Shown here piece by piece: positions 58,822 through 64,000 of a stretch of 64,000 nucleotides of DNA. Below the pieces are notes generated by a model. The model had not been told where the DNA came from. It saw only the letters and a program-made list of their open reading frames with translations, and did no database searches. Each line of letters opens with the position of its first letter. Positions within the stretch are counted from its first letter, which is position 1. The DNA is from Gracilimonas sp. (GTDB taxonomy: Bacteria > Bacteroidota > Rhodothermia > Balneolales > Balneolaceae), in the NCBI RefSeq assembly GCF_040218225.1, contig NZ_JAVJQO010000006.1, forward strand, positions 558,001 to 622,000, in the 5' to 3' direction. The translations under genes and the position numbers were made by a program.

Positions 58822-60501
58822 TTAGTTATTAGAATGAAATACTCGTTGAATCCTTAATAACTCATCAATCAAAACTCTAAACCCCTCAAAATTCTCAACT
58901 GTATTATGTTCACCGTCATCAAAATTTGATTCGATGACCTTCTTTGCATCTCTTAGTTTACTTACATGACTATATTTTGAAGCATTATTAATTTTTTCTT
59001 CAAAAAACGGCTTGTAAAAAGACACGGGAAAGTAATCTTCTAATACAAAAAAACTATCGGTCCAGCCTGATGTTTTTTTATGATAGATAGATTTAATATT
59101 TGTCATACTAGAGTCACTTACAATTTCATCTACACCCTCTTTACCTCTGATGCCTTGGGTATCCTTATCGAATAAACAAATACATAATTGTTCATCCCTT
59201 AAATGGTTCATAAAAACCTCTTTCAGAACCTGTACTACATTCTGGGCACCACCACAAGGGAAAATTACAAATTCGAAATTTGTATACCCTAATAAATCCA
59301 AGGCTTTACTTAAATATTTGTAATCTGTTTTCCCTTCCACAAGTAGAATATCTCTAGTCGTTGTTAGGCCAAGATTGGCATCAAAAACAGTAAAATGCCC
59401 TTCCGTTAGTCTCTCAATTAATTGTAGTTTATCAATTTCTTTTATTCTTGATTCTCCACCCTCGCTTACCACCATTTCAATATTTTGATTTGGGAAAGAG
59501 TGCGTTAATGTCGGCGAATGAGTCGTTAGGATATTTTCTCGATTTGCATAGCCGCTAAATATATTCTTAAGCTCTTTTTTTCGAGAAATATGAACATGAG
59601 AGTCTGGCTCATCGAAGAGGATAAGAGAATTCTCATCGCCCAATACTTCTAAAATCAATTGAATCAATATTAACTTTTTCTCGCCTTCACTCAGTGATTT
59701 TACTGTTTGGCCATTATTAAATGATAACGTTACGCTCTTGACTAATTTATCCCCTTTCGGCATTGTTGCCGCCATGAGGTATTTAAAAAAGTCTACTTCA
59801 CTTGAAATCAGACGTTCAAGTAATCCTTTTAGCTCATCAAGAGTATAACTTTCTTCCCTTTTTTTATTCGGGTTAATAGTTCTGACAAAATTGACAACTG
59901 GGTTTTGTGGCCAACTATCTAATAACCTATTATTAAATTCAAAACTGATCTTATCTATAGAAGAAACACCCAAAGTTTCTACACAGAAATTTTTTATATC
60001 CTCAAAAGAATCAAAATCATAAAAAAAGAAGGTTAGTAAAGCGATATCCCAATAATATCGATTGACAAAAATTAGAGGTAGTTCAGGTATCTCACTACCT
60101 TTTAATGCCTGCACATAGTCATCATAGACTGGCTTATAATAAGCTGTCCAGATTCTGTCTTCCTCACCACTATAGCAGCAGATAACCTGATTTGGTAAAA
60201 ACTCATCTCTTATTCGGTCATCTTCATTGTCTACTTTAACTCTTAATTCGTCTGTAGTCGTTTTGTATACAATTTTTATTTCTTTTCCATCAAGATCATA
60301 ACTTAAGTCGTAGCTGAAACCTGGATTAAAACCTCTATCAAATAGCCCTCTAAAAATGGCACTAATAGCTTCTAAAATGTTGCTCTTTCCACTGCCATTG
60401 TTACCGATTAGAACAGTAATCCCATTTTTATCTTGAAAATCAATTTGTAACCCTTTAAGGTTTTTAAATGTTGTGGAAATCTTGAGTTTTTTTAGCTTCA
60501 T
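58822..60501 (-). CDS. OLD-like AAA ATPase with C-terminal TOPRIM nuclease domain
   Basis: 559 residues. ABC/SMC-type ATPase with Walker A GNNGSGKS (33-40), signature LSEGEKK (about 268-274), Walker B LILFDEPDSHVH (about 294-305) and H-loop TTHSPTLT. The C-terminal TOPRIM domain has the acidic residues VEGKTD (about 388-393) and FDKDTQG (about 445-450), the metal site of OLD-family nucleases. Such proteins act in phage defence (OLD, GajA and relatives). Its ATG overlaps the hsdS stop by four bases, so it belongs to the restriction-modification operon. AT-rich. The class within OLD proteins is not determined. Confidence 0.88.
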   Translation of the reverse strand: MKLKKLKISTTFKNLKGLQIDFQDKNGITVLIGNNGSGKSNILEAISAIFRGLFDRGFNPGFSYDLSYDLDGKEIKIVYKTTTDELRVKVDNEDDRIRDEFLPNQVICCYSGEEDRIWTAYYKPVYDDYVQALKGSEIPELPLIFVNRYYWDIALLTFFFYDFDSFEDIKNFCVETLGVSSIDKISFEFNNRLLDSWPQNPVVNFVRTINPNKKREESYTLDELKGLLERLISSEVDFFKYLMAATMPKGDKLVKSVTLSFNNGQTVKSLSEGEKKLILIQLILEVLGDENSLILFDEPDSHVHISRKKELKNIFSGYANRENILTTHSPTLTHSFPNQNIEMVVSEGGESRIKEIDKLQLIERLTEGHFTVFDANLGLTTTRDILLVEGKTDYKYLSKALDLLGYTNFEFVIFPCGGAQNVVQVLKEVFMNHLRDEQLCICLFDKDTQGIRGKEGVDEIVSDSSMTNIKSIYHKKTSGWTDSFFVLEDYFPVSFYKPFFEEKINNASKYSHVSKLRDAKKVIESNFDDGEHNTVENFEGFRVLIDELLRIQRVFHSNN

Positions 60502-61874
60502 TGACCTCGAAAAATTTCATCTTTAAATGCTATGATGGCATTAATATCATTATTTTTTGCATTTCTTTTTAGTTCTGCAATCTCTCTATATCTAGTTGCT
60601 AATTTATCCGAAATTTCATTTTGAATATCTAAAGGCAGCAATGGGAAAATAATTTTTTTCGTGTTTCCAATACCCAGCTCAGTCTGATTTGTAGATTGAG
60701 CTGACTTAATAAGGTTAATCTGTCTTTGACAATATTCTGAGTTAATCAAGAAAACAATAAACTGAGGATTTAGCTTTTTTCTATTTACCCTAAGTAATAA
60801 CATGTGGCTATCATACATTAATCCTTCAAATTCATTGGTAACATAACTCGCTCTGCCAATTGTACCTTCACCTGTAGAATTAATCAGAATATCACCCTCT
60901 TTGGTAAATTGGTTTTTATTAATTCCATCCAACCATTTCTTTTTTACTTTTCTTGCATGTTCTAATTTAATTTCATTCCATCTGTTACATTTCTGATTTA
61001 AAATAATAGCATCAGAATTTTTATCATAAACTGGACTCTTACCTCTTCTTAATTCTTCATAAAGAGAACTATCGGATTCAAAAGAGAATGTCGGATATGT
61101 TTTTGAATCAAATGAACTGTTAAACAACAGGTTATCTACACTCCATTCTAAAATTTCTTTATATCGAATAAACTGAAGACCATTAATATCCTTTTCTTTC
61201 GGCTTTTCAAGTCCTACTTTTTCGAATAGATAAGATTTCAACCTTAATTTCATTTCTGAAACCTTCTTTCGATTGCCTTTTGCCCGAGAGGAAAAATCTT
61301 TATAAATATTTAGAATCCTAATTTGTTCTGTTTTTTCTGGTAAAGGAACAGTTTGATTAAGAAACATTTCTAAATCAATTCTCTGCCTGTTGGTAGTACC
61401 ACTACTACAACTTTGAGCAAAAGAAATAAATTCTTTAGTAGATGTTAATAAGACAAAAAACTGAGGTAATATTTTTTCAGTATCAATATCAAAAACTGGA
61501 AAATCATTAGTCACCATCGCTCCATCTAACTCCTCCGGTACTATTCCAAAAGCTCCATTTCGAGCATCAATTTTGGACATAATAAACTGGCCCGCACTTG
61601 CCCTGTATTGTCGCTTTGTCCCAATATCTTTTCCAAATTTCCAGTCTCTTTCTTCAACACCATTTCCATTAATCTTTACCGTTACTTGTTGGTATTCCAC
61701 TTCATCTTGAACATGAATTATATCTCTTCTTCTTTTTAAAAAGCTTCCTATAGGAGCCAAGTCAAACTTTTCATTATAGGAAAAAGACGTTTCCAACAGG
61801 TAGCGCACACTCCAGTTCGTTAATTGGGCTAAACTTGTTTTCTGTAAATAAGAATTACCTATAAATGCCGTCAT
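60498..61874 (-). CDS. hsdS: Type I restriction-modification specificity subunit (HsdS)
   Basis: 458 residues with two target-recognition domains. TRD1 lies in the first 200 residues (QFIMSKIDARNGAFGIVPEE, then PLPEKTEQIRILNIYKDFSS leading into a central helix). TRD2 lies at about 235-430 (GDILINSTGEGTIGRASYV, then PLLPLDIQNEISDKL and a second helix). The helices pack the methylase subunits. The DNA target cannot be read from the sequence. It begins 18 bases after the methylase-fusion stop and is coupled to the ATPase gene by ATGA. Confidence 0.92.
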   Translation of the reverse strand: MTAFIGNSYLQKTSLAQLTNWSVRYLLETSFSYNEKFDLAPIGSFLKRRRDIIHVQDEVEYQQVTVKINGNGVEERDWKFGKDIGTKRQYRASAGQFIMSKIDARNGAFGIVPEELDGAMVTNDFPVFDIDTEKILPQFFVLLTSTKEFISFAQSCSSGTTNRQRIDLEMFLNQTVPLPEKTEQIRILNIYKDFSSRAKGNRKKVSEMKLRLKSYLFEKVGLEKPKEKDINGLQFIRYKEILEWSVDNLLFNSSFDSKTYPTFSFESDSSLYEELRRGKSPVYDKNSDAIILNQKCNRWNEIKLEHARKVKKKWLDGINKNQFTKEGDILINSTGEGTIGRASYVTNEFEGLMYDSHMLLLRVNRKKLNPQFIVFLINSEYCQRQINLIKSAQSTNQTELGIGNTKKIIFPLLPLDIQNEISDKLATRYREIAELKRNAKNNDINAIIAFKDEIFRGQ

Positions 61875-61892
61875 TTAAACATCCCTAATAAA

Positions 61893-64000
61893 CTATGCTG
61901 AGTAAAAAATCTCAGGTTCACCTTCACCTGCAATAGCTAAACGAGTAATCTCAGATTCGTCAGTTATATTGTAGGTCACATTCTTGTATTTATTTTCCCA
62001 AAGCTTATGGGATTCTCGATAATTTTTAAACTCTTTTGCCAATGGCTCCAACTCATTTTCTATTTTTGCTCCGGTTGTACTAATTCCTGCTTTTTCTACC
62101 TCAGCAATAGGAATTTCATAGTCAAACTCACGTTTAATTGTAGCCCTTATTTCTGTTTTAATTTGTTCTTTAAGATCGCGCAATTCTCTTCTTAATTCTT
62201 TTTTTCTTTCTTTTGAAGGAGCTTCTTTACCTTTTTTAGAAAGCTCTTCCTCAATAGGATCAACTTTCTCTTTGAAATCAGCCTCTACCTTTTTCTTCGA
62301 CTCCTTTGCAATTCTATTCCAATCAGCTGCTTCCTCTTCTGTAAACTTTTTAAAGAAAACCAAACTTGGCTTAACAGTAGCACCAGAGGCTACAAAAACA
62401 TCCTGAGGTATAGAGGTAATTAAAATGATTTTGGCTTTGCTTTCTACAAAGTCACGTACCCTCTGAAGATTAGTTGTATTTAGTACTCCCTCTGGTAATA
62501 CAATTCCCATTCGTCCACCGGGCTTGAGTAAATTCAAACATCGCTCAATGAACAAAACCTCGGTAAGTTTGCTCATTTTTCCAGTTTTAAATAGACTCAA
62601 AATAGGTTTATCAACATTATTATTAACCTGCTTTAAAGCCTCTTTATATGCTTTACCATACTTTTTTTGATACTTATCTATCTTTTCTTGATCAGTATAT
62701 CGGTCTGCTTCCGTTATTTTTAAAGATTTCTCAACCCTTGAACCAAATGGAGGATTAGTAAGGATAATATCAAACCGATTTTCAAAAATGCCATTTATAT
62801 TGAGCAACCCATCATTATGATGAACACCACCATGACCATCCCCGTGCATAATCATATTCATTTTTGCAGTTCTACTCATTCTTGGATTCGCATCCGTGCC
62901 ATAAATACAGTCATAGGAAAGAGCTCTTAACCGACTCTTATCATTGTTAATATCCAGCTCGGTATTAAGCTTATTGAATAAATCGTTTACCTTAGCATCG
63001 ACCTTTTCTTTTTCCTCTTCTGGTAAAGCTTCATAATCCTCTGTATAAAACTCACTCTTTATTTTTTCTTTCTCTTTATGAAGCTCTTCTTCTATTTGAG
63101 ATCTTACATATTCAAACGCTTTTATTAGAAACCCACCGCTCCCACAACAAGGATCACAAATTACTTCTCCCTCTTTTGGATCTAACACTTCAACTATAAA
63201 ATCAACTATGGTTCGTGGTGTAAAAAACTGTCCCAACTCTCCTCTAAAAGTTCTACCAAGAAATTTTTCAAATGCGATTCCTTTTACATCATCTGATGTT
63301 GTCGATAAATTATATTTCTCGAGCTCTTTTACAATTGCTTCAAAACTATTTTCTCGAATTCTAATAGTTTCATTCTCATCAAATAGATCATCATCTTTAA
63401 ATTCAGTTTTTGTTTTCTCAAACAACTTTTGATAAAAGGGAAGATCTGTTTTAGCCCTATACTTTGCGTCATGCTCTTTGCCCCTTTTAAACTCTTCTTC
63501 CGAAAATAATTGACCAGTTGAATTGTCCCTTTCGTACCTAATCTTTATAAATAGAATTTTGCTAATTTCATCAAATGCAGCTTCTGGCGAAAGCTTATCA
63601 TTATTACGAATTATATTGTGGCATTTGAAAAGTAGCTTCGAAAATTCATCTCTTGTAAACGCCTTAGTTTGGCTAAGAAGATCCTTAATTTTCTTTTCAT
63701 TGTTAATGTCTTTGGCATGAGGAATATCAATAATCTCATCCAGTTGCTTAGGCATCTTCCCTTTTAGAACATTAAATACTTTCGTCTCTTTTAGGTTTGA
63801 TGTTATAAAGAAATCAGCCCCTGCCCAAGCCGCATAATTGTAACCTTGAAAGTAATCTTCCTCAATAATAGTGATGTGTTCAGCCTTACACTCGACTACG
63901 ATTATTGGACTGTTACTTTTCAGCTTATCATTCTCACTTTTCCAAATAACAATATCTGCCTGTGCCCTTCCTTGTCCTCGTTGGGAATTATTCACCTGAA
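61893..64000 (-). CDS. Nuclease-methyltransferase fusion (HsdR-N-like domain + N6-adenine methylase), 5' end outside window
   Basis: At least 700 residues, frame open to the right edge. The first in-window start codon is a GTG at 63995, but the real start is probably outside. The N-terminal part shows a type I restriction HSDR_N-like PD-(D/E)XK site: ADIVIW, then VVECKAE (D14, E35, K37 counted from the GTG) and a following Q-x-Y stretch (DYFQGYNYAA). The methylase domain has GELGQFFTPRTIV, motif I DPCCGSGGFL (about 281) and NPPFGS (about 414). The last roughly 170 residues are charged and helical. The layout recalls BcgI-type fusions and differs from classical HsdM, since cutting and methylation share one chain. 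No separate HsdR is in the window. Confidence 0.88.
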   Translation of the reverse strand, partial: QVNNSQRGQGRAQADIVIWKSENDKLKSNSPIIVVECKAEHITIIEEDYFQGYNYAAWAGADFFITSNLKETKVFNVLKGKMPKQLDEIIDIPHAKDINNEKKIKDLLSQTKAFTRDEFSKLLFKCHNIIRNNDKLSPEAAFDEISKILFIKIRYERDNSTGQLFSEEEFKRGKEHDAKYRAKTDLPFYQKLFEKTKTEFKDDDLFDENETIRIRENSFEAIVKELEKYNLSTTSDDVKGIAFEKFLGRTFRGELGQFFTPRTIVDFIVEVLDPKEGEVICDPCCGSGGFLIKAFEYVRSQIEEELHKEKEKIKSEFYTEDYEALPEEEKEKVDAKVNDLFNKLNTELDINNDKSRLRALSYDCIYGTDANPRMSRTAKMNMIMHGDGHGGVHHNDGLLNINGIFENRFDIILTNPPFGSRVEKSLKITEADRYTDQEKIDKYQKKYGKAYKEALKQVNNNVDKPILSLFKTGKMSKLTEVLFIERCLNLLKPGGRMGIVLPEGVLNTTNLQRVRDFVESKAKIILITSIPQDVFVASGATVKPSLVFFKKFTEEEAADWNRIAKESKKKVEADFKEKVDPIEEELSKKGKEAPSKERKKELRRELRDLKEQIKTEIRATIKREFDYEIPIAEVEKAGISTTGAKIENELEPLAKEFKNYRESHKLWENKYKNVTYNITDESEITRLAIAGEGEPEIFYSA

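Follow-up and report, generated by a model that had tools for sequence, protein, structure and literature searches.

The present study concerns three adjoining genes at the end of a 64,000-nt stretch of the genome of Gracilimonas sp. (RefSeq assembly GCF_040218225.1, contig NZ_JAVJQO010000006.1, forward-strand positions 558,001 to 622,000), hereafter the window. A check of the open reading frames (ORFs) of the window places all three on the minus strand, at the positions given by an earlier sequence-only reading that had proposed a defense operon here, made up of a nuclease–methylase fusion, an HsdS specificity subunit, and an OLD-like ATPase with a TOPRIM nuclease domain.

61893..64000, minus strand: HSDR_N nuclease–N6-adenine methylase fusion, 755 aa in full, with its start beyond the window at G000:C6:622160
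60498..61874, minus strand: hsdS specificity subunit, 458 aa, with two Methylase_S stretches
58822..60501, minus strand: OLD-type ABC ATPase–TOPRIM protein, 559 aa
58822..64000, no strand, continuing to about position 10218 of L002 (~5.4 kb in total): acquired island of exactly three genes, low in GC and absent from the same site in sister genomes

When the sequence was continued past position 64000, as the sequence-only reading had advised, the fusion was completed and mscL, followed by phoH, was found upstream of it; the separate HsdR motor of canonical Type I restriction–modification (R-M) systems is encoded neither within the operon nor in this adjoining stretch. A complete hsdR just upstream, which the sequence-only reading had listed among its grounds for doubt, is thus lacking. 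The only hsdR-like match in the genome lies on contig C4 (L165), in an ordinary Type I locus apart from this one. The fusion and hsdS are separated by an 18-bp spacer (61875–61892), and the ATG of the ATPase gene overlaps the TGA of hsdS (ATGA, 60498–60501), both as originally described. The gene beyond the ATPase is a convergent 161-aa ORF, and the stop codons of the two abut.

The R-M genes carry the Pfam domains HSDR_N_2 (9.7e-13), N6_Mtase (6.2e-36), and Methylase_S (1.4e-15), and the catalytic motifs of both halves of the fusion are intact.

63885..63956, minus strand: PD-(D/E)XK site of the fusion, D69, E90, and K92 in full-length numbering (D14, E35, and K37 from the first start in the window, as first reported), invariant in 84/84 relatives
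62745..62756, minus strand: NPPF methylase motif, residues 469–472, invariant in 84/84 relatives

Because the nuclease triad and the NPPF motif are invariant in all of these relatives, whatever gene lies downstream, the fusion should not need an outside nuclease. Its best structural match, obtained with a predicted model (pLDDT 76.4), is the Type IIB enzyme BsaXI, at an identity of only ~19%. The catalytic residues E73, D90, E105, and K107 of BsaXI were shown by mutagenesis (PMC11997821), and the counterparts of this E…D…ExK arrangement in the fusion are D69, E90, and K92, with E28/E29 as the putative equivalent of the first glutamate. Like BcgI and BsaXI, the operon combines an N-terminal PD-(D/E)XK domain and a gamma-class adenine methylase in one chain with a separate S subunit bearing two target recognition domains, and lacks hsdR, which is the Type IIB layout; it differs from them in adding a third gene, and to our knowledge no third gene has been described for enzymes of this type. 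The best reading of the fusion and HsdS, as judged from sequence, is that they would form a self-contained R-M enzyme of Type IIB architecture resembling BcgI and BsaXI.

The third gene encodes an ABC ATPase followed by a TOPRIM domain with E and DxD motifs, the arrangement that characterizes OLD family nucleases.

60382..60405, minus strand: Walker A, residues 33–40, with G33, N35, G36, G38, K39, and S40 invariant in 24 homologues
59680..59694, minus strand: ABC signature LSEGE, residues 270–274, invariant in 24/24 sequences of the homologue alignment
59605..59613, minus strand: Walker B DEP, residues 297–299, invariant in 24/24 sequences of the homologue alignment
59032..59352, minus strand: TOPRIM core, residues 384–490 (E389, D393, D445, D447, and E488), invariant in 24/24 homologues

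Pfam recognizes the ATPase (AAA_21, 5e-18; AAA_15, 4.8e-17), and the TOPRIM domain falls below its threshold (DUF4435, 16.2 bits against a cut-off of 27). The TOPRIM assignment of the sequence-only reading nonetheless holds, given the invariance of its metal residues, and of G390 with them, in 24/24 homologues and an AlphaFold model of the protein (pLDDT 86.9) that matches first OLD and GajA and then retron PtuA and AriA, at low whole-chain TM-scores (~0.3) such that the orientation of the domains is not fixed by the model. Sequence comparison puts the ATPase closest to PtuA and the ATPase of retron Ec83, and among its PADLOC scores PtuA is the best (157.8 bits), with AriAB at 71.1 bits.

Across the operon the GC content drops from ~0.45 in the flanks to ~0.33, and four sister genomes of the genus have the 161-aa ORF and mscL as neighbors, 9 to ~820 bp apart, with the operon absent. 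The empty site and the low GC together indicate that the three genes are a recent acquisition and probably self-sufficient; the acquired unit is the fusion, hsdS, and the ATPase–TOPRIM gene, and nothing else. A phage origin of the operon was considered and set aside, no match having been found in phage records or viral contigs.

A first scan of genome contigs with the ATPase alone gave no match; a species-genome scan with an alignment of the fusion succeeded, and its 80 loci, together with the window, G393, G226, and a Flammeovirga plasmid, make up 84 related HSDR_N–methylase loci that span about 10 phyla, including Bacteroidota, Campylobacterota, Bacillota, and Pseudomonadota. The three-gene order, whose absence from other genomes the sequence-only reading had named as grounds for doubting its own proposal, recurs widely. 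The module counts are limited to the 54 of the 84 loci whose sequence extends 4 kb or more downstream: the downstream module is an ATPase–TOPRIM protein in 27, a PtuB-family HNH protein in 15, and neither in 12, and the two modules never occur together (0/54). The HNH modules are Septu-like and nearly always accompanied by a PtuA-like ATPase, L070 being without a recognized one. Of 40 control loci with an ordinary hsdM, drawn from the same phylum, ~2 had such an ATPase; a nuclease module is present in 42/54 of the related loci (Fisher p 3.7e-13, computed with 2/39 controls), a figure that describes only one subfamily because the loci were picked by similarity to the methylase family of the window. 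The gap between hsdS and the ATPase gene is at most 25 bp in 39/42 loci, with overlap in 23. Searches that started from the ATPase found 7/7 full-length TOPRIM-ATPases directly behind HsdS or a methylase–specificity (M–S) fusion, a set in which two apparently repeat methylase-first loci and one (G751) lies near a contig end. The coupling of the R-M enzyme with an OLD-type effector, as first proposed, is therefore real and conserved, and a chance neighborhood of the ATPase is ruled out by the way the order recurs, the constancy of the gap, and comparison with the control set.

Variant arrangements were also encountered. In L180 (3749–6259; G804) a single 837-aa nuclease–methylase–specificity chain, with HSDR_N just below the cut-off, directly precedes an ATPase–TOPRIM gene. 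Two loci, L172 (G178) and L009 (a Pseudoalteromonas plasmid), hold hsdR, M, and S together with an ATPase–TOPRIM gene and a related ATPase gene, respectively, and in these the ATPase is plainly an addition to a complete Type I system. L170 (G316) and L012 (a Vibrio plasmid) encode M–S without a nuclease domain, followed by a PtuA-like ATPase and a PtuB/TIGR02646 HNH protein, with no hsdR within the stretch seen.

The conserved enzyme is accompanied by a changing third gene. Parsimony places 12 changes of the TOPRIM/HNH label on the methylase tree; well-supported branches alone force at least 7 switches, or at least 8 on a 47-taxon tree, and at least 10 are required by the HsdS tree. The 31 TOPRIM proteins fall into one clade of the ATPase tree (SH-aLRT 94). 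The many switches on the methylase tree, taken with the single TOPRIM clade, indicate that whole, long-separate modules have been swapped under a conserved methylase, and pairs of methylases that are 95% identical (L055/L017 and L039/L033) differ both in module and in HsdS. A matching of the effector to HsdS or to the C terminus of the methylase was considered, and the tree tests gave no such signal. That relatives keep the enzyme and repeatedly swap the nuclease suggests, on sequence grounds, that the last gene may be an exchangeable second-line weapon.

The slot after HsdS is also occupied by TIR, Fic, HATPase–DUF4325, and DGQHR proteins; TIR and Fic are families known from toxic effectors. 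L063 (4101–5510) has an SpbK-like TIR protein, L016 (8611–9666) a Fic protein whose start is VbhA-like, and L037 (12679–13938) a DrmA-like HATPase–DUF4325 protein, and slot proteins of 820–876 aa are found in L083 (11643–14270), L085 (11679–14132), and L088 (11688–14150), the DGQHR match being weak in L083 and L085. Two ATPase–TOPRIM genes from separate branches of the ATPase tree stand in tandem behind one HsdS in L052 (11612–15590), and those of L047 (11682–14216) and L053 appear broken or split. In L043 (13407–15880) and L051 (13414–15888), the ATPase–TOPRIM gene is followed by one gene for a protein of 130 aa and another for a Type IV restriction enzyme of GmrSD type, identified by a scan of L043, as if a third defense layer had been stacked on. 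In L007 (7625–10240; G393) a fourth gene, encoding a large SMC-like ATPase that matches the PADLOC candidate PDC-S06 (1025 bits), overlaps the ATPase–TOPRIM gene. Downstream of the operon in L037 (13985–14809) lies a 275-aa GIY-YIG–DUF4357 gene; genes of equal length occur downstream in the Bacteroidales loci L033, L035, L038, L040–L042, L054, and L078, with the domain scan confined to the L037 copy.

Several known defense systems resemble parts of the operon. In the case of PrrC, the linked EcoprrI keeps the nuclease silent and an anti-restriction peptide triggers it (PMC2610378, PMC12707154). Like the operon family, this system places a nuclease bearing an ABC ATPase domain among the R-M genes, but the anticodon-nuclease domain of PrrC uses another catalytic triad and its R-M system is of Type IC and includes hsdR, whereas the family has TOPRIM or PtuAB and a fused R-M enzyme; the C-terminal domain of the ATPase studied here is TOPRIM and not the anticodon-nuclease domain of PrrC. 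PARIS (AriA/AriB, or fused AriAB), also weighed as a name for the operon, likewise combines an OLD-like ABC ATPase with a TOPRIM nuclease, in a sensor–effector logic directed at anti-restriction proteins, but the operon ATPase scores higher for PtuA than for AriAB, the Pfam family of AriB (DUF4435) stays below its cut-off, and this type of ATPase is R-M-linked at every locus seen in our analysis. The AriB TOPRIM cuts tRNA (PMC12409363), and retron PtuAB depletes it (PMC11555353).

Gabija, Septu, and MADS were each considered as names for the operon and rejected, their defining features being absent. As regards Gabija, a class 2 OLD system, no UvrD-like GajB helicase adjoins the ATPase, whose neighbor is the convergent 161-aa ORF. 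The PtuA and HNH PtuB pair of Septu and of retron type I-A effectors is the sister module in 17–18 related loci, but the operon ATPase has its own TOPRIM domain and no PtuB, which is present in sister loci such as L006; no reverse transcriptase lies in or beside the unit, a retron ncRNA not having been searched for. MADS comprises eight genes, compared with three here; its MAD2 methylase is similar over the N-terminal half, including HSDR_N, its MAD5 is HsdS-like and its MAD3 is an AAA/ABC ATPase, but all NCBIfam MADS scores are far below cut-off (MAD2, 265.6 against 720; MAD5, 51.5 against 400). The sequence-only reading had known of no standard named system with this gene set. This stands for the exact set as far as could be checked, but not for the general class: PMC12839542, citing Krishnan et al. 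2020, describes ABC-ATPase-anchored R-M-like systems in which, as summarized there, OLD-ABC ATPases with TOPRIM, HNH, or other nucleases are linked to R-M genes, and NCBIfam names a “restriction system-associated AAA family ATPase,” TIGR04435, against which the operon ATPase scores 56.7 with a cut-off of 300. In a literature search that lay outside the Krishnan et al. 2020 classification, we found no description of the exact HSDR_N–methylase/HsdS/OLD set and none of a single R-M chassis on which modules are repeatedly exchanged; OLD ABC ATPases that are linked to R-M genes and bear various nucleases are known in general.

With moderate confidence, we favor a model in which an R-M enzyme of Type IIB architecture is translationally coupled to an exchangeable OLD-family effector that plays a guard role like that of PrrC for EcoprrI and PARIS for Ocr. 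The model builds on the architecture, the intact nuclease, methylase, ATPase, and TOPRIM sites, the recurrence, the effector swapping, and the single acquired unit, all read from sequence, and its accessory-effector mechanism is modeled on the precedents of PrrC, PARIS, and retron PtuAB. The RM–S complex would methylate host adenines at a bipartite site defined by HsdS, and unmodified DNA would be cut by the PD-(D/E)XK domain of the fusion itself. The ATPase–TOPRIM protein would be kept silent in normal cells and turned on once the restriction enzyme is inhibited, overwhelmed, or engaged on invading DNA, whereupon it may cleave nucleic acid, either tRNA or DNA, and stop the infected cell, with host damage the most likely outcome; by analogy, the effector is probably abortive. 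A broader proposal, which we hold tentatively and would not quite back, is that of a family of guard systems in which one Type IIB-like enzyme may act as sensor and silencer for an interchangeable slot filled by ATPase–TOPRIM, PtuAB, TIR, Fic, or other proteins.

Several observations weigh against the guard model. Effector type is tracked at most weakly by the HsdS or methylase tree, where direct contact between the R-M enzyme and its effector would lead one to expect some coevolution; 12/54 loci carry neither nuclease module, and the enrichment is that of a single subfamily. OLD relatives such as GajA and Septu PtuAB need not kill the host and can cleave DNA directly. The main rival to the guard model is a direct restriction partnership in which RM–S would mark or hold unmethylated DNA and the OLD or PtuAB nuclease would destroy it, in one machine of the kind proposed for BREX- and MADS-like systems. 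It is favored by L170 and L012, where the methylases lack a nuclease domain and the OLD module is the sole nuclease visible in the stretch seen. Such a partnership would likewise suit the fixed, often overlapping position of the module behind hsdS and the targeting of phage DNA by Septu PtuAB, a report cited in PMC11555353, but it sits poorly with the invariant nuclease site of the fusion, the occurrence of TIR and Fic proteins at that position, and the relatives alongside a full hsdR (L172 and L009), and we regard it as unlikely, if deserving of serious weight.

The weak tracking of effector type by either tree, and the general tendency of defense genes to cluster, would also suit two independent genes that share an operon within a defense island for expression and cotransfer, with no functional link. 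The enrichment over ordinary hsdM loci, the overlap or short gap at nearly all loci, the consistent R-M linkage in the ATPase-first searches, and the acquisition of the three genes as a unit all speak against independence, making it quite improbable. Least probable by far is replacement of the HsdR motor, which the sequence-only reading had raised as one option and in which the ATPase would drive translocation or loop formation for the fusion nuclease. The operon does lack hsdR and the protein is an ATPase, but OLD ABC ATPases are not SF2 translocases, this one bears its own conserved TOPRIM nuclease, the slot is elsewhere occupied by nonmotor proteins, and BcgI/BsaXI-type enzymes cut without a motor; the retention of the D–E–K triad in 84/84 fusions and the ATPase relatives beside hsdR likewise disfavor it. 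The alternative offered by the same reading, a second-line effector, is favored by the intact, self-sufficient nuclease of the fusion, the exchangeable module, and the TIR and Fic proteins that occupy the slot elsewhere.

The finding bears on the recurrent occurrence of OLD and Septu nucleases beside R-M genes. PrrC and PARIS are the best-known defenses that watch over restriction enzymes; if the third slot of this operon is also a guard, then such guarding is widespread, reaching ~10 phyla among the 84 sampled loci, and modular. If the broader proposal is true, then unrelated suicide effectors plug into one restriction chassis, and module swaps, for which the natural pairs of 95% identical methylases with different effectors would permit direct experiments, could test how an R-M enzyme reports its own inhibition.

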